From a virus: a stretch of DNA of 21,175 nt. The first letter of the stretch is position 1, and every line of letters begins with the position of its first letter. The notes below the pieces were generated by a model, which saw only the letters and a program-made list of their open reading frames with translations, did not search any database and was not told where the DNA came from. The translations under genes and the position numbers were made by a program. Shown one piece after another: positions 2,732-21,175 of the stretch. The stretch lies in the IMG/VR virus record IMGVR_UViG_3300000148_000009, positions 1 to 21,175 of that record; one strand, written 5' to 3'.

Positions 2732-3205
2732 CTATAGTTCAATTATTTTATGGATTTTAGTTTTTAGTTGTTTTAACTCATCATGTTGGGTTAATAATAC
2801 TGAATTTTTGTAATGCTCCCAAGTTATAGGAAACTTAGTATCAACTACACCTCCATTTAATTTTTTAATTAATTCATTTAAAGCATTAATTGTATAGAGA
2901 GTATTAGTTTCTTTTTTTCTATGTACTAAAATTGTATTTTCAGGTAAATCAGATACATTACCTTGATCAATATTATATGTACACACATACTCATCATTTG
3001 ACTTAATATACAAAACAAATATCTTATTATACATAATATTATATTTATCTGTAATGGAACTTAAAAGTGTTTCTAAATTCTCTAAAGTAGTAAAAGTACA
3101 AAATAACTTATTGTTCAAATCTCCTAAGTTTTGATTAGTAATGTCCGAAAAATCGTCCATTACATACATATTAGGGATTTTATTTAAAATCGTAGTTACT
3201 TCCAT
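2732..3205 (-). CDS. Hypothetical protein between polymerase and gp32
   Basis: This 157-residue protein is not recognised. It has no signal peptide, membrane segment or obvious catalytic motif. Predicted character is mixed alpha/beta: a strand-rich middle (KIFVLYIKSNDEYVCTYNID, about residues 62-81) and a charged helical C-terminus (HDELKQLKTKIHKIIEL). It starts at 3205, overlapping the last 26 bases of the polymerase gene, so the two are translationally linked; an alternative ATG 12 codons later would give almost no overlap. The stop is 63 bases before the gp32 start. Its place inside the replication block suggests a replication accessory role, but it does not resemble T4 UvsY or clamp-loader proteins. 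Codon use and composition match its neighbours, and the frame is intact, so it is probably a real gene. Confidence 0.75.
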   Translation of the reverse strand: MEVTTILNKIPNMYVMDDFSDITNQNLGDLNNKLFCTFTTLENLETLLSSITDKYNIMYNKIFVLYIKSNDEYVCTYNIDQGNVSDLPENTILVHRKKETNTLYTINALNELIKKLNGGVVDTKFPITWEHYKNSVLLTQHDELKQLKTKIHKIIEL

Positions 3206-4439
3206 GGCATGTTTTTATTTGTAATTTATTTTTATTAAATAGCTCTTTTATCTCTTGTAAAATTCCCTCCTCTTCTTTACTTACATCAAATAAAAACGAA
3301 TCATATGTGTATAAAACTATCTTAGTTTTTTTATTTCTTAATAACTTAATTATTTCCCATAATATATGAACATTCATTGAGGTCTCCAAGTTTTGAAGCA
3401 CATAATTTAATAGTTTTTGAGGTTTCATTTCATCTAATTTTTCTTTAACAAATCGATGTTTTGAAATAGGACACTCAATCCAGCCTTTCTCATTAAACTC
3501 CTCCCATAAACTATCAGTATATACTTGAACTTTCTTAAAAAATTCTAAGTCCTTATATTGATCGAAAACTCCTCCATATAATTGCTTAAATGTCAGTTCT
3601 TTTGCTTTCTTATAATCAACGCCATACATTTCCGCAAAGGCAGTATGAATATCTTCATCACCAAAATCATAACCCACCAACTTAGCCAACAAAGTAGGAT
3701 GATAAGCACCAATATCAAACTCAGCAAAAATGTCATTACGGGGAATAAAACTTTCTCTACTTTTATTTTCTTTATTAAGTGCGGCATAATTTACTCCTTT
3801 GAATTTATTACTTGGTCTTCCTGTAAGGGTTTTAAAGTTGTATTGAGTGTAGATATATTCTCTATCGACATCGTGAAAATGCGATTTAAATTTTTCTCTA
3901 TCAATTCGTATACCATTTCGTTCGATGGCGTTGAATACCATTGAAGATTTATTATTGTAGAATTCATTGATTGGTTCATTTATTTTATTTTTTAGGTTAT
4001 TATATATTTCTTCACAATATTCATAGTGTTTGACTATAGGTACTATTTTATTTATGTCTTTTTTATTTGGGAATCTTTTATTAAAAATATGATGGGTTTG
4101 TGTTAATTCTGGTATATATGGAGGGTTTTGTTGGTTAATGTCGGAGATATCTTTTATTGGTAAATAGTGTAAAAATTCTTTTTTATCTCGTACATATATG
4201 TTATCAAATTTATGTAACATCGTGTTTATCTTCGTCATATTTACATTTAGAGTCTCGCTATGGTGTAATGGGACAATAAACCCTTTAGTTGATATAGACG
4301 GTCTAATATACAAGGCACAGATGCCATTTATTGCGGGATGTATTAAATAACTATTTGGGATTATTTCAATAAAAACATCCCCCCAATTAGCATTTGAAAA
4401 CTGTTCAAATTGAATTTTACTTTCAACTAACCAAAACAT
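3180..4439 (-). CDS. Divergent short family-A (Pol I-like) DNA polymerase
   Basis: Residues 160-419 carry the palm/fingers signature of family-A polymerases in correct order: TGRPSNKFKGVNY (R208), motif A AEFDIGAYHP (D242), EDIHTAFAEMYGV (D263, H265), fingers helix KKAKELTFKQLYGG (K280, F284, Y288, G289), LNYVLQNLET (Q349), and motif C YTYDSFLFD (D380). Both catalytic aspartates are kept. Three usual residues differ: the steric-gate Glu of motif A is H247, the fingers Arg four before K280 is Y276, and the HDE of motif C is YDS. The N-terminal 150 residues look like a worn 3'-5' exonuclease fold (FIVPLHHSE, INKIVPIVKHYEYCEEIY) without the expected acidic residues, so proofreading is probably absent. 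At 419 residues it is far shorter than Pol I (about 930) and lacks a 5' nuclease domain, which is encoded separately at 1-699. Whether it is the replicase or an accessory enzyme cannot be decided here. Confidence 0.82.
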   Translation of the reverse strand: MFWLVESKIQFEQFSNANWGDVFIEIIPNSYLIHPAINGICALYIRPSISTKGFIVPLHHSETLNVNMTKINTMLHKFDNIYVRDKKEFLHYLPIKDISDINQQNPPYIPELTQTHHIFNKRFPNKKDINKIVPIVKHYEYCEEIYNNLKNKINEPINEFYNNKSSMVFNAIERNGIRIDREKFKSHFHDVDREYIYTQYNFKTLTGRPSNKFKGVNYAALNKENKSRESFIPRNDIFAEFDIGAYHPTLLAKLVGYDFGDEDIHTAFAEMYGVDYKKAKELTFKQLYGGVFDQYKDLEFFKKVQVYTDSLWEEFNEKGWIECPISKHRFVKEKLDEMKPQKLLNYVLQNLETSMNVHILWEIIKLLRNKKTKIVLYTYDSFLFDVSKEEEGILQEIKELFNKNKLQIKTCHGSNYDFK

Positions 4440-5451: not shown

Positions 5452-8400
5452 TTAATACGTATAATCTTCTCCAGTTAAATCTTCAATTTCTGCTATTTTA
5501 TCTTGTACATCTCTATCATTATAAAAATCTGTGTATTGGGGTTTATCTCCACCTCCTAATGCTTTGATTTCTAACTGGAACATTGGATCCTTTCCTACTG
5601 ACCATAATGATCCAATTAATTTTTGATTAGCTTCTACTGATTCTAAGTGTGATTTTGATGATTTACCTCCATATCTTGGTCCTGTTCCTCTAGGATTACC
5701 ATATTTATCATCTTGATTTGTGTTAAATTTAAATCCTGGAGCCATACAACCTAATAACCAAGCAGATGAATTTCCTTGAGCTGCTGGTGCTTCATGAATT
5801 AATACATATTTTCTATTAGTTGTATTATATCCTTTTATTGGTCCTCCCTGTGCTAATACAGTTTTTCTATCACCTTCCCCAGGATTAGCTATAAGAAAAC
5901 AATCCCCATGTTTAGGAGAAATTCTTGAAGCAATGTCATAATTTCCTGTTGGAATACAACTAAGATTATTTTTATTGTCTAACCAAGGTAATTCTACTGT
6001 AGGTAAAGCGTATAGAGTATTACCATTTTCGTCTAAGACTTCCATTAATCCTAAAGTTTGATAACCATTATCAACTAATCTAGTTAAAATTATTCTTGTA
6101 ATTATATCTTTATTTTCATTAGTTGCTAAAGGTTCTTTTGCTGCTTCTTCTAATTTTTGTTGTTTATCAGAAGGTTTATTAACAATAGGTTTTTTCTTTC
6201 CTGAACTCACAGGGGCATCATGTCTAGGTACTGATAAAGTATCAATAACAGTTGTCCATCCTTGTTCATTAACCGAATGATTTACTCCTTTAACTATAAT
6301 ATCAACACTATTTTTTTCATATGATGGTGGTAATATATCATCAGATATTCTAAACTTTTCAAATAACTTTATTCCTGACATCCCTTCAAATTCTAAATTT
6401 AAATTAAAAGGTAGGAAGAATGGGGATGGAGTAACTCCCCCTTCTGTTAATGCCCCTTGTATTAATTTAATATAAGATGTATAATTCTCTGTAAGATCTT
6501 TACTTACGTCTTCCAAAAAGTTATAAGAATTTTTAGGTTGTCCTGTATCTTTTTTTGCTGGAGTATATATTGATGTAAATGGAGAAATTTTATCTCCTGA
6601 TGAAAGGAAATATATTTTTTCATTTGCTAATTTCATTGCTTTTTGAGCACTACTTTGTTCCTCTTCTGGGTCTTCTTTACTTTCATAATCTACTTTTTCA
6701 GGTATAACTCTATCAATTAAACCTGCATTATAACTTGAAAATGAAGTTGCATTACCCTGAAGATTATTTCCTGAATGTTGTGCTCCAATTGCTAACATCG
6801 TAGCAAATTCTTTAGGTATTTCTGCATTTAATGATATATTTGTAACAAAAGATCCTTGATTTTGTTTTACTCCAAAAACATTCATTTTAGCATATGCACT
6901 TTCATTAGAACTGACTAAACCTGGTTTAGGTGTTTCATCATAAATTTTTATAACTCCTTTTCCCTCATCATGTACCACCATAAAGTTATTAATACTACCC
7001 ATAGCTTCATTAATACCATCTAAAATAGTTTGTAGAAAAGATAAAACAGAAATACCCCCATCATCACTTTTTGTTGCTGTTGCTAAGGCTTCAGAGCAAA
7101 ATCTTAAATTTATTAATATATTTCCCATTCTTCCTACAAATTTTTTAGATTTACCTTTTACTAAAAAACCTGATTTTTGTAGTTGGTTATTTAATTTTGT
7201 ATCTGTTGGGATATCATCCATTGCCGCCATTAAATCCCCAAATAAAGCACTTTGCCTCAGATGTCGTTGTAATATGTTATCTGATACTGTATTCCCTATT
7301 TCTTCTGATCTCATCTTATTATAAGGAACAAGACATATTTTAGGGTTAGTAGAAAGGTTAGGGGGTACTATAAACATATAATTTTTATCACGTTTTAAAT
7401 TTTGATATCTAAAATCAAATTTTATTAATGGTGTAGTTCCTCCATCTTTTTTTGCAAATAAATTACAATTTTCTTCAATAATTTTTAATAAAGCCCCAAA
7501 TTTTATAAAAACGCTTTTATTAGTTTTACTTTCACCTGCAAGAGTTTGTTCTCCATTTAAAGTATTTCTTAATACAAAACCTCCTTCTTCAATTCCATTA
7601 ACTGGAATCCATTTCCCACCTCTTTTTTCAGTAAATAGTGATATTATTCCATCAAAGGCTGTTGCAGTCTGATAAATGTTAAAAAATATTTTATTTAATC
7701 TAGTATCATTTTTATTTGCTAATAGAGGGTTATTATTAACATTTGCTTTTGCTATTTTTTGGATACTTTCTTTTTTACTTTTATATTCTTTTTTTAAGAA
7801 TTTATCCATCGTGGATGGGATCCACATGGTAGTAGTACCTGTTATTTCTGAAAATTCAGCTGATTGTGATGTAGTCAACACTTCCCCTCCCTTCCAAATT
7901 TCATATAATTCATAAGTTAAATAATCTTTAACCCAATCATCAAGTGTAGTATTTATTCCTCCACTTGAATCTGATTCTTTGTCATTTTTATTTGGATCAC
8001 TAACATTTAGTTTTAGAGATTCTATCATAGAGCCCATTCCTACTAAATGAACAGTGCATGTATAAGAACCATCCGATTCAAAATTCCACTTAAAATTTAC
8101 TATCTTGCCATAAGTAGCTTCATAATTTCCACAATATTTTCTTCTTTCTTGATTTATTAAATTTAATAATTGGAATTGACTTTTGGTACCTGCAAAAGAG
8201 CCAGGATTTAAAATAAAATCTAAGGGTTTTGATTTAAATCCATCATATGATTGTAAAGCCCCAACTGCTAAATCATTATTATCTACTGTTCCATCTCTAT
8301 TGGAATCTGCATTTGAATTTAAGAAAGTTGACCATCCAAATTCTAATAAAAGAGTATATCCTGGTCTTAAATATAAAACATCCAATAATTGAAATTGTTG

Positions 8401-15551: not shown

Positions 15552-17291
15552 TTATGCTGGGAAAGTTGCTCCAGTTGGTAAAATGTTAAAGTCTAGGTAA
15601 ATAAATTCTGCTGTTTTAGTTGGTTGTAAATAAACTGCACCAATTAGCTCATTTCTATCAATTACATCTGGTGTGTTGTTGGAATTATCCATTACAACTT
15701 TAAATGCATATAAACCTTGTCTTTGTTGAACTGATTCTAAGTATGGATTAACTTGACTTAAGAATGTATTTCTTGTAGCTGCTGTATTTTGTTCAAATAC
15801 TAATGTATCAGCGATTTGTGAAATATAATTTTTAAGAGTAATTAATAATCTTCTAACATTTACTCTATCTAAAGCACTTGCTTTAGTTTGTAATGTTTTC
15901 TGTCCAAATACTACTATTCCTTGTCCTGGGAATGTTGCTATTGGATTTACTTTTCCAGTATATAAAGTATCTCTATTAGTATTAGTTAATTTTCTTTCTG
16001 CTTGATTAACTGCTCCTAATCCCCCTCTATTGATACCTGCAGGTGCAAACCAAGGCTCTCCTGCTCTATCATTATAAGCATAAACTCCTGGTATCATTGT
16101 TGAAGCTGGAACCCAAACTAATTCTCTTGAATCTGGGTCAATTATTTGTAACCAAGGCCAATATGTAGCTACATATGAAGAATCAACTGTAGCTGCTTGA
16201 CTAGTTACTTGAGTTATTGTAGAATTATAATTAACTAAATCACCTACAAATATTGCATCTCCTCTTGTTTCACAATTTGATTGAATTGTTGTCCAACCAG
16301 CTCCTGAAGTACTATTTGCTAATATTAATCCAGGTGATGTAATTACATTATATCTAAATTCATCTCTATTAGCTAATAAATTAATTGCTGTAGTGTAATC
16401 GGTTCCTACTAAACCTTGAGAATCTGCATTTCTTATTGCTTGATAGAATCTTGAAGGAGCTCCACTTCCTGTTATATCACCTACTGCTGCGCCAAATGAT
16501 CCTGATTGAGCTGCAGGTATTGATCCTGTATAGATATCTTTAGGACTTCCGGCATTATCAAAGTAATTTGGAGTTTGAGCCTCAACGGCTGATACTCTTA
16601 TAAATCTTGAAGCATTAGGATAAGATCCAGATGATTGTAAATAAACACCAGTTCCTGATCCTCTTACTGTTTGTACTTGATCACCAATTACTTTTGATAT
16701 ATAATTAGTAGCTAAGGGATCTAATGATAAATTTGGGTAAGTTTCAATTACTTGTTTTGAAGTTTGAGTATCATTACCTTGTCTAAGCAATAAAGAAAAT
16801 ACACCTGATGAGGTATTAGGAGATGTTATTTCCCATCTAAAATTATCAGATGAACCACTTGCTAGTGTTCCGTTTGAACCATTAGGACCAACACTATTCA
16901 TTATATTACCTTCAGCTAATGTAGCTAATGTAAAAGGAGAAATATTAGCTGCAACAGTAGTTCCTACTGATCCCGTGTTAATTAATGATGATGTAGCTTG
17001 TGAAAATGCTCCAGGTGTAACTCTAGTTACCAATAATGTACTACCCCCATTTTGGAAGTAATTATATGCTGAAATTGATGTAAAGAATGTATATTGATTA
17101 GATCCACTTAAAAAGGTACTACCAAAGGCAGCTTCATATTCTGAGTAACTAGTTACTAGTTTGGGAATATTTTGTTGACCTTTTACAGTTGGTCCAATAA
17201 TTGCGGCTCCTGCTTGTATAGGACCTGCTGTTATTTGTGATTGGTCGTTTTCTCTTGCTAAAACACCCGGTGATATTAATACTTCTGCCAT
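15552..17291 (-). CDS. gp18: Tail sheath protein gp18
   Basis: A 579-residue contractile sheath protein (T4 gp18 is 659). The N-terminus EVLISPGVLARENDQSQITA is the typical sheath opening, followed by GPTVKGQQNIPKLVTSYSEY (about 33-52). The C-terminal domain, most conserved in sheaths, includes NRGGLGAVNQAERKLTNTNR, DTLYTGKVNPIATFPGQGIV, VFGQKTLQTKASALDRVNVR and RLLITLKNYISQIADTLVFE, ending in FIYLDFNILPTGATFPA. Hexameric rings of this protein surround the tube and contract to drive it into the host. The variable middle (about 100-330), rich in S, T, N and G, probably forms surface-exposed domains. Gene order sheath then tube is as in T4. A candidate late promoter precedes the ATG by 19 bases. 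Confidence 0.96.
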   Translation of the reverse strand: MAEVLISPGVLARENDQSQITAGPIQAGAAIIGPTVKGQQNIPKLVTSYSEYEAAFGSTFLSGSNQYTFFTSISAYNYFQNGGSTLLVTRVTPGAFSQATSSLINTGSVGTTVAANISPFTLATLAEGNIMNSVGPNGSNGTLASGSSDNFRWEITSPNTSSGVFSLLLRQGNDTQTSKQVIETYPNLSLDPLATNYISKVIGDQVQTVRGSGTGVYLQSSGSYPNASRFIRVSAVEAQTPNYFDNAGSPKDIYTGSIPAAQSGSFGAAVGDITGSGAPSRFYQAIRNADSQGLVGTDYTTAINLLANRDEFRYNVITSPGLILANSTSGAGWTTIQSNCETRGDAIFVGDLVNYNSTITQVTSQAATVDSSYVATYWPWLQIIDPDSRELVWVPASTMIPGVYAYNDRAGEPWFAPAGINRGGLGAVNQAERKLTNTNRDTLYTGKVNPIATFPGQGIVVFGQKTLQTKASALDRVNVRRLLITLKNYISQIADTLVFEQNTAATRNTFLSQVNPYLESVQQRQGLYAFKVVMDNSNNTPDVIDRNELIGAVYLQPTKTAEFIYLDFNILPTGATFPA

Positions 17292-19193: not shown

Positions 19194-20357
19194 TTATCCT
19201 ATATAAATTGGGTAAGGTACTGCTGATTCAATTTTTATTAATGATTCTGCTTCTGATGCTTTTCTTTCTAATAATTTATCTCTTGATGTTTCATCAAAAT
19301 ATTCTCTTAATCTTGTAATTAATGCTGCTTTTTCTTCAGTTGCAGCTGATAGTAAATCTTGTTGGTTTAATGTGGCTTCGGCTCCGGGGATTGGTACTTG
19401 TGTATATTTACCCCTAATATATCCTAATATTTCTTTACATAAAGATAAAGTATAATCAAATATCCAACTTCTACCTATAGAATTAATTTGATTATAGTTA
19501 GGATTAGAATAGTTAACATTTGAAACATTTGTTACATTAAATGATCCTGAGGGTAATGTTGAAATTGGGTTATTTCTTTCAGACATTTTAATATATTGAA
19601 TATTTATTTTTCCATCTCTTTGAGGAATTGGAAATATTCTCAAGTTGTTATTTATTAGTTCAAAAGAAAATTGTGATCTTCTAATTTGATCATTCATTTC
19701 TATAGCTTGTATTTTCTGCATATCAAAACTAAGAGGCATCATTAATTCTGCACTACCTATACCAGGTGAGAAACCCCCCCAACCAAAGCTATCCATCATA
19801 TTCATCATACCTACTCCCGTTCCGGCATAAGGATCGAAGAATTTTGTAATTGCAGGTACTGATTCATAAAATACTCTTTTTACTTCTATAGAATCATTAT
19901 TCCCTAATCCTAAGGATTGTGAAGCCCATACTTTTAAATCATAATCTTGAGTACCTGTAGAAGATGAAATTGAACCATTATACCAAGTTACTGTTCCTCC
20001 TGTGCCTGCTTCTTCACCATACTGTTCTGTATAACGTACAACGCTAGCAAAATTTGGAGTTATTAATTCATGATTTAAATTAGATGCAGTAGGTGATCCT
20101 TCTATTGATAAATAATTTTCTCGTACTTTATAAGCATATAATTCATTACCATATGTAGTAATTGCTTCTTCAAATGCTGTGTAGAAATTTAAATCTTGTA
20201 ATTCTACATCCATTATTGGATAACCTAATCTTCGAGAGCAATAAGTAACTACTCTATCAGCATCGGTTTGGAAATCAATTTGGTTATCGTAGAAACCAAA
20301 AGGTGTGTCTCCAGGGAAGAAAGATGATGAACCAGGATAAATAGGGATTATAGCCAT
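19194..20357 (-). CDS. gp13: Neck protein gp13-like
   Basis: A 387-residue protein at the gp13 position of the neck cluster; T4 gp13 is 309 residues. The N-terminus has RVVTYCSRRLGYPIMDVELQ, LQDLNFYTAFEEAITTYGNE and YAYKVRENYL, a helical connector-type block. The middle contains a Gly/Met/Phe-rich stretch (about residues 170-200, GMMNMMDSFGWGGF). Then come NNNLRIFPIPQRDGKINIQY and a C-terminal helical part, WIFDYTLSLCKEILGYIRGK, RLREYFDETSRDKLLERKAS, ending in PYPIYIG. Position immediately before gp14- and gp15-like genes supports the assignment more than raw similarity. It is the first gene of the neck unit and has a candidate late promoter 12 bases upstream. Confidence 0.8.
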   Translation of the reverse strand: MAIIPIYPGSSSFFPGDTPFGFYDNQIDFQTDADRVVTYCSRRLGYPIMDVELQDLNFYTAFEEAITTYGNELYAYKVRENYLSIEGSPTASNLNHELITPNFASVVRYTEQYGEEAGTGGTVTWYNGSISSSTGTQDYDLKVWASQSLGLGNNDSIEVKRVFYESVPAITKFFDPYAGTGVGMMNMMDSFGWGGFSPGIGSAELMMPLSFDMQKIQAIEMNDQIRRSQFSFELINNNLRIFPIPQRDGKINIQYIKMSERNNPISTLPSGSFNVTNVSNVNYSNPNYNQINSIGRSWIFDYTLSLCKEILGYIRGKYTQVPIPGAEATLNQQDLLSAATEEKAALITRLREYFDETSRDKLLERKASEAESLIKIESAVPYPIYIG

Positions 20358-20392: not shown

Positions 20393-20947
20393 TTAATCGA
20401 TAACAATCTTAGGTACAAAATATTCTTTAGTCCTAAAATATTTATGTTTCATATTTTTTACAGGAGGATTTACTTTTATTTTTGTTACTGTTAAAGTACC
20501 CCATTTAAGATTATATCTTAATGTTTTTTCAATATCTGTATTGTAAAAAGTAACTATTCCTTTAGGTTTTAATGAAGTTTTTACATTATTGAGAAAATAG
20601 GGCCAGTTTTTTTCATTCCATGTATCATGCATAATACCATCATATTTTTTATCTTTTGGTATACTATCAAACCAATCACCTTTTATAGGTATTACGTTAG
20701 GTTTACCTTTAGCCCATTCTTGTAAACGTTCAAAGACTTCATCATGTATTTCAATTATAGTGTGGGATTTAATATCAGCTTCCTGTATGAAATCCGCACA
20801 TATATTCATACCAAAACCTATTTCTAATATATCACCCCCATTTTCAGTAACTATTTTAGCATGTTCCCCCATTAATGAAGTTTCCCAATCCATCATTATT
20901 TCTCTGCCATCTTCATCTAAAATTTTATCTTCTAAAAAAGTATACAT
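20393..20947 (-). CDS. GAMT/RMT2-like SAM-dependent guanidino N-methyltransferase
   Basis: A 184-residue class I methyltransferase. From memory it follows mammalian guanidinoacetate N-methyltransferase closely: MMDWETSLM (19-26, like the MERWETPYM block), DILEIGFGMNICADFIQEAD (39-58), HTIIEIHDEVFERLQEWAKG (62-81, acidic E66 binds SAM ribose), VIPIKGDWFD, YDGIMHDTWNE (102-112) and SLKPKGIVTFYN. The acidic residues E42 and D108 align with those reported to hold the guanidino group in GAMT. It is shorter than GAMT (236 residues) but contains the whole Rossmann core. Related enzymes methylate guanidinoacetate or the delta nitrogen of arginine in proteins (RMT2). The target here is unknown; a position just before the neck genes suggests a virion or host ribosomal protein, which is inference. 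No DNA methyltransferase motif (DPPY, PC) is present. Confidence 0.85.
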   Translation of the reverse strand: MYTFLEDKILDEDGREIMMDWETSLMGEHAKIVTENGGDILEIGFGMNICADFIQEADIKSHTIIEIHDEVFERLQEWAKGKPNVIPIKGDWFDSIPKDKKYDGIMHDTWNEKNWPYFLNNVKTSLKPKGIVTFYNTDIEKTLRYNLKWGTLTVTKIKVNPPVKNMKHKYFRTKEYFVPKIVID

Positions 20948-20971: not shown

Positions 20972-21175
20972 TTAACAATCAACTATACTTAAAATTATTC
21001 CATTATAACCAACTTGTACTGCAGCCCAAGTTGTTCTACCTGTTGCATACAAATACCAAAGTTCTTCTCCATTCCATGGATTATCATATGACGCATCACT
21101 TTCTAAAAATAAAACACCACCATCAACAATTGCAGTTGAAGGACTATATATGGTAAAACTAATAGTAGGTTCTGC
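20972..21175 (-). CDS. C-terminal fragment of unrecognised protein (start outside window)
   Basis: The last 67 codons of a minus-strand gene enter from the right edge and stop with TAA at 20972-20974. The visible part is rich in aromatic residues and beta-prone: FTIYSPSTAIVDGGVLFLES, DASYDNPWNGEELWYLYATG, TWAAVQVGYNGIILSIVDC. It looks like the end of a compact beta domain, as found in phage structural proteins, but I recognise no family. It precedes the methyltransferase by 24 bases and is probably in the same transcript. Too little is present to assign a role. Confidence 0.7.
   Translation of the reverse strand, partial: AEPTISFTIYSPSTAIVDGGVLFLESDASYDNPWNGEELWYLYATGRTTWAAVQVGYNGIILSIVDC

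Follow-up and report, generated by a model that had tools for sequence, protein, structure and literature searches.

Uncultivated phages encode a small methyltransferase that is predicted to modify an arginine in their own fiber or adhesin proteins. The analyzed DNA (the window) is a stretch of 21,175 nucleotides from the IMG/VR virus record IMGVR_UViG_3300000148_000009, and it contains the gene for a class I SAM-dependent N-methyltransferase (MTase) with the fold of guanidinoacetate N-methyltransferase (GAMT). A hairpin arginine pattern in two unrelated neighboring proteins, taken with the close linkage of the genes and an active site of the guanidino type, points to arginine methylation, and a phage-encoded arginine N-methyltransferase that acts on the phage's own fiber or adhesin is the probable function. 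The wider proposition, that in many marine phages a GAMT-fold enzyme modifies the hairpin-tip arginine of the phage's own fiber or adhesin and does so in two unrelated target domains, is slightly favored. The open reading frame, the fold, the conserved acids, the gene linkage, and the co-variation of enzyme and arginine are observed. Protein-arginine methylation is a predicted function that rests on this co-variation, and we infer the identity of the modified residue. A protein arginine is the most likely substrate, ahead of guanidinoacetate.

The MTase open reading frame is real and begins with an ATG codon. The window DNA that carries it recurs in a second IMG/VR contig (L001/L018) and is identical over the 6780-base overlap. 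GAMT was the sole family matched by the MTase when all PDB chains were searched with phmmer (rat GAMT 1xcj, E = 3.8e-25; human GAMT 3orh, E = 3.4e-24; query residues 11–137). A profile of 45 phage relatives matched GAMT with E = 5e-28 and all other proteins with E = 7e-5 or worse. Pfam returned only a weak, generic match to Methyltransf_25 (E = 2e-4, below the cut-off) and no match to a GAMT model, and PHROGs returned no match. Sequence similarity to GAMT covers about 70% of the MTase and the structural match covers 100%. The AlphaFold2 model of the MTase is confident (pLDDT 90.8). Its superposition on human GAMT has Z = 24.6 and an rmsd of 1.7 Å across 180 residues, and the superposition on rat GAMT has Z = 24.1. 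NodS is the next family in the structural comparison (Z = 16.9), and no PRMT appears among the 50 structural matches listed (VIA-align), which is neutral evidence on a PRMT relationship. An earlier sequence-only reading of this DNA described the protein as GAMT-like, with WET and GFGM motifs and acidic residues expected to hold a guanidino group, and it named a profile search as a check and a better match to another methyltransferase family as evidence against the assignment. GAMT is the best match by far in both sequence and structure, no other family matches better, and WET, GFGM, and a D-T pair all align with rat GAMT, so the assignment stands. The coordinates of the gene and of the features discussed below are collected in Table 1.

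Table 1. Features of the window that bear on MTase function
Feature	Position	Strand	Basis or remark
MTase (GAMT-fold, SAM-dependent, 184 aa)	20393..20947	minus	ORF call, sequence match, structure model
Codon of E22 (W-E-T motif; aligned with rat GAMT Glu45)	20882..20884	minus	64/65 conserved
Codon of D108 (aligned with rat GAMT Asp134, catalytic acid)	20624..20626	minus	64/65 conserved
Tail-fiber-like protein, C-terminal 67 aa, Cys-flanked end domain	20972..21175	minus	directly upstream of MTase, cut by window edge
Codon of invariant Arg in ATGRTTW, fiber C-terminal domain; proposed methylation site	21035..21037	minus	alignment
gp13-like head-tail adaptor (phrog_211)	19194..20357	minus	downstream neighbor, this subgroup only

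The two acidic residues were paired with their GAMT counterparts from the phmmer alignment coordinates. GAMT Glu45 is presumably a residue of the guanidino site. The SAM-binding and acidic motifs are nearly invariant across the MTase family, and both acids anticipated by the sequence-only reading are kept, each in 64 of 65 non-redundant members. The sole member without them is encoded in a bacterial NRPS locus, and both acids are likewise missing from its two Bacteroidota relatives. In GAMT the proton is accepted by Asp134 (PMC12471008, PMC12842229), and the MTase very likely uses the guanidinium chemistry of GAMT, as predicted from the shared site. The N-terminal lid of GAMT (residues 1–42) closes the active site over the small substrate (PMC12842229). 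Residue 1 of the MTase model aligns with GAMT residue ~24 (23/24), which leaves GAMT residues 1–22 without a counterpart, and most of the lid is therefore missing from the MTase. The loss of most of the lid predicts a more open pocket, one that would be suited to a protein side chain.

The MTase family is large in uncultivated phages. A profile scan of IMG/VR found 311 relatives, and a second profile found 318. The same kind of scan gave one match in 84,980 GTDB genomes. A more sensitive search of Bacteroidota identified a homologue in 3 of 395 genomes, all three located in NRPS loci and devoid of both acids, and plasmids yielded two distant Actinomycete homologues (L497 and L498). Only 1 of the 50,697 INPHARED records, the uncultured 635-kb phage LR745206, carries the MTase, and this result was obtained with three different queries. 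The few bacterial relatives found belong to loci for the biosynthesis of peptides or arginine. The domain of the GAMT-like proteins in the Bacteroidota NRPS loci (L094–L097) and of L497 and L498 is homologous to the phage enzyme (E = 1e-14 to 1e-37 against the phage profile). Unlike the phage MTase, L095, L096, and L097 have the Glu replaced by Leu or Gln and the Asp replaced by His, and the replacement of both acids suggests that these proteins catalyze a different reaction. The L498 gene, on the Streptomyces plasmid NZ_CP107895.1, adjoins genes for a 2-ketoarginine methyltransferase and a β-methylarginine aminotransferase, and its product is perhaps an arginine-derivative N-methyltransferase. 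A quick tree allows the phage MTases to form a single clade, which is weak evidence because the branches are long.

The genes next to the MTase were surveyed at 86 loci. The MTase usually begins no more than ~25 nt from the end of a large fiber-like gene. The upstream same-strand open reading frames fall into two homologous fiber-like clusters, one of the window type (31 loci) and the other with 46 loci, and the exceptions are few (L017, L046, L094, L047, L068, and L069). The 123-aa upstream open reading frame of L046 still bears the fiber domain. On the short contigs L047, L068, and L069 a clamp-loader-like gene, judged by eye from the sequence, lies upstream of the MTase. The context of these three contigs counts against the fiber-arginine reading, as does the 635-kb phage LR745206, which has neither target domain. 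The fiber-like protein truncated by the window edge is 576 aa long in the L001/L018 contig, where the full gene spans 705–2435 of L018.

The sequence-only reading had placed the MTase directly before a gp13-like gene in a neck operon. The adjacency is correct in the window, where the next gene downstream matches phrog_211 with E = 1e-11, but the link to gp13 and the neck does not extend across relatives. The gp13 gene follows the MTase in only part of the window-type loci, and other loci have an 85-aa gene and then the sheath gene in this place. A search seeded with gp13 gave 43 loci in which the upstream sequence was long enough to judge; the MTase is present in 9 of them, and both it and the fiber domain are absent from the other 34. 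Every MTase locus in this search with visible upstream sequence has the fiber domain or, once, the adhesin described below, and among the gp13 relatives the fiber domain and the MTase are met only together. The adhesin is absent from 15 of 16 window-type records, and the exception (L099) carries an MTase-adhesin cassette beside gp13. A gp13 or neck linkage was rejected as meaningful context because most gp13 relatives lack the MTase and many MTase loci lack an adjacent gp13. The survey that the sequence-only reading had proposed, of whether the gene stays beside gp13 in related phages, shows a conserved fiber gene instead.

Other genes of the window and its relatives were recorded in passing. 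The tail sheath of close relatives ranges from ~580 to more than 1000 aa (L003, 5909–9013, versus 15552–17291 in the window), with large insertions in some. A 1142-aa baseplate-region protein (5452–8880, minus strand) has a DUF5675 domain near its C terminus (residues 932–1061, E = 9e-9). A 419-aa open reading frame (3180–4439, minus strand) partially matches the DNA polymerase phrog_17 (profile positions 1035–1207 of 1445), and the adjoining 157-aa open reading frame (2732–3205, minus strand) belongs to no assigned family; this arrangement is possibly a split or reduced polymerase.

In the 40%-identity branch, the MTase gene is followed by a gene for a β protein of ~225 aa, whose start codon usually overlaps the MTase stop codon. 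These downstream genes occur at 46 loci and form one blastp cluster. The confident structure model of the protein (pLDDT 89.6) has its best matches in CBMs that bind chondroitin sulfate (Z = 14.7) and alginate (Z = 12.4), and the protein is predicted to be a carbohydrate-binding adhesin. The model of the L091 adhesin places an arginine in an (S/A)GRGGG-like loop at the tip of a hairpin (strand 41–46, loop 47–52, strand 53–64). Adhesin sequences were gathered from loci that have the MTase next door and from loci that lack it, and the loop was scored as R[GSAT][GSA], a motif fixed after the alignment had been inspected. At 90% non-redundancy the motif is present in 96 of 96 adhesins with the MTase versus 8 of 25 without it (Fisher test, 5e-15, relatedness ignored), and at 50% non-redundancy in 48/48 versus 4/14. 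A first scan, seeded with MTase-linked adhesins alone, gave 63/63 versus 8/20. Among the MTase-less adhesins the replacements of the motif include VKGGG, SKGGN, a shortened loop (the RTKR clade), and loops without arginine. Only the loop is affected by the loss, because the neighboring Arg60, nine residues beyond it, is kept in both sets (96/96 with the MTase and 25/25 without, 121 in total). On the adhesin tree all seven inferred motif losses fall in MTase-less lineages, whose share of the tree length is 19% (crude binomial p = 1e-5). An independent-pairs test gave 3–4 agreeing pairs and none opposed, and it lacks significance (p = 0.125–0.5) because the pairs are too few. Full-length searches of 30 records that carry an adhesin without an adjacent MTase detected no MTase elsewhere in them; these records are fragments. 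The eight MTase-less adhesins that retain the motif, whose contigs are fragments, count against the correlation. Separately, in the record L453 (1–1965) gp13 is preceded by a tandem pair of adhesin-like genes, of which the second is without the loop arginine, and the contig ends upstream of the pair.

The fibers upstream of the adhesin-type MTases have no universal arginine in their C-terminal 60 residues. Window-type fibers have a Cys-flanked domain of ~95 aa at the C terminus or just before an S74-type chaperone, and C27, G47, P61, R75, and C95 are the sole invariant residues in 16 sequences of this domain. The arginine is present in all 22 listed non-identical MTase-linked sequences, in the context G-R-S/T/D/G or S-R-T, and the sequence predicts that it lies in a hairpin. 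In Bacteroidota proteins that occur without the MTase, the homologous domains have no arginine in this column. Three phage fibers that share the domain order but come without the MTase read SGA in place of SGR (hhalign E = 5e-4, probability 32%). These controls are few and consist of distant bacterial domains or weakly homologous phage fibers; the fiber domain has no conserved stretch, and IMG/VR was scanned through S74-linked and gp13-linked sequences instead. The G-R-(G/S/T/D) pattern alone is not rare in virion proteins, and its recurrence elsewhere among those encoded in the window counts against the proposed target.

The proposed mechanism starts with Glu22 and Asp108, which would grip the guanidino group of the target, with Asp108 taking the proton. 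The target in the window phage would be the invariant arginine in the G-R-(S/T/D/G) hairpin of the C-terminal domain of the upstream fiber, and in the sister branch it would be the hairpin-tip arginine (SGRGGG) of the CBM-like adhesin encoded directly downstream. Methylation would occur late in infection, before assembly, and it may tune the folding of the fiber tip or its binding to a glycan receptor, with a possible effect on adsorption.

A best match to true GAMT is also what would be expected if the enzyme were an AMG product that methylates guanidinoacetate to creatine or acts on another free guanidino compound. The distant Streptomyces homologue beside β-methylarginine biosynthesis genes, and the assignment of GAMT (K00542) to creatine synthesis in an ocean catalogue (PMC11360552), point the same way. 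Such a small-molecule role is nevertheless unlikely. No amidinotransferase (PF02274) was found in 14 records, most of them fragments but the 635-kb phage included, in searches whose controls were positive; the MTase lacks the greater part of the lid; and it is linked to fiber or adhesin genes with co-varying arginines. The absence of an amidinotransferase from these records and the tracking of the neighbor's arginine by the MTase disfavor a host metabolite, and the published creatine reading is less likely. The sequence-only reading had listed a virion protein, a host ribosomal protein, and a host metabolite as candidate targets; the virion protein is the best supported of the three, and the metabolite is disfavored. 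Methylation of a host protein such as a ribosomal-protein arginine would resemble the action of RMT2, which is taken here to be a δ-N-arginine methyltransferase related to GAMT. The location of the MTase in a late fiber module, the neighbor's arginine that tracks it, and a 184-aa length that is all methyltransferase domain, with no ankyrin-like N-terminal extension, make this role very improbable.

An enzyme that acts on the fiber or adhesin could instead methylate another arginine, a lysine, the N terminus, or a glycan, leaving the hairpin arginine a structural role. The cassette moves as a unit, so hitch-hiking can yield enzyme-arginine correlations, and adhesin Arg60 is likewise invariant. 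Set against this, the motif was lost in several separate MTase-less lineages while Arg60 was kept throughout, and the same pattern occurs in two unrelated domains; this alternative is given a low probability. Weak Pfam and NCBIfam matches to KsgA-type models would suit a nucleic-acid methyltransferase, and a catalytically dead scaffold may be considered with it, but these matches are far below the cut-off, GAMT is stronger by many orders of magnitude, and the SAM-binding and acidic motifs are almost invariant. Either possibility is highly improbable, and the nucleic-acid methyltransferase was rejected because all of its matches are sub-threshold.

The MTase shares with GAMT (1xcj and 3orh) the fold, the W-E-T, GFGM, D-T, and IIE motifs, and both acids. 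GAMT is 235–236 aa long versus 184 aa for the MTase, the difference including most of the N-terminal lid. Unlike GAMT, the MTase is encoded with tail-fiber or adhesin genes, and no amidinotransferase was found with it. The fungal and plant enzyme RMT2, presumably GAMT-related, resembles the proposed system in having a protein arginine as its target. RMT2 is understood to carry an ankyrin-like N-terminal region fused to its methyltransferase domain, and the MTase has no such region. A survey of titles and abstracts found no report of a phage-encoded protein arginine methyltransferase.

GAMT (K00542) was reported in nine Arctic virus populations with an 85-fold enrichment over microbial homologues, the greatest virus enrichment in that ocean AMG catalogue, where it was interpreted as a creatine biosynthesis gene (PMC11360552). 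That GAMT is probably the same family as the phage MTase or overlaps with it, and the reading offered here is fiber or adhesin arginine methylation instead. If correct, it would give a function and a precise site to the most virus-enriched family of the catalogue and would reveal a system by which phages modify their own host-recognition proteins after translation. The arginine-methylation idea is testable because it names the residue expected to be modified. Lysine and arginine methylation on Cellulophaga phage proteins, including a tail fiber in free virions, was reported in 2026 (PMC13288928). No methyltransferase gene is known from those phages, and host enzymes were proposed. The MTase would be a phage-encoded enzyme for the virion arginine methylation that has hitherto been credited to the host.
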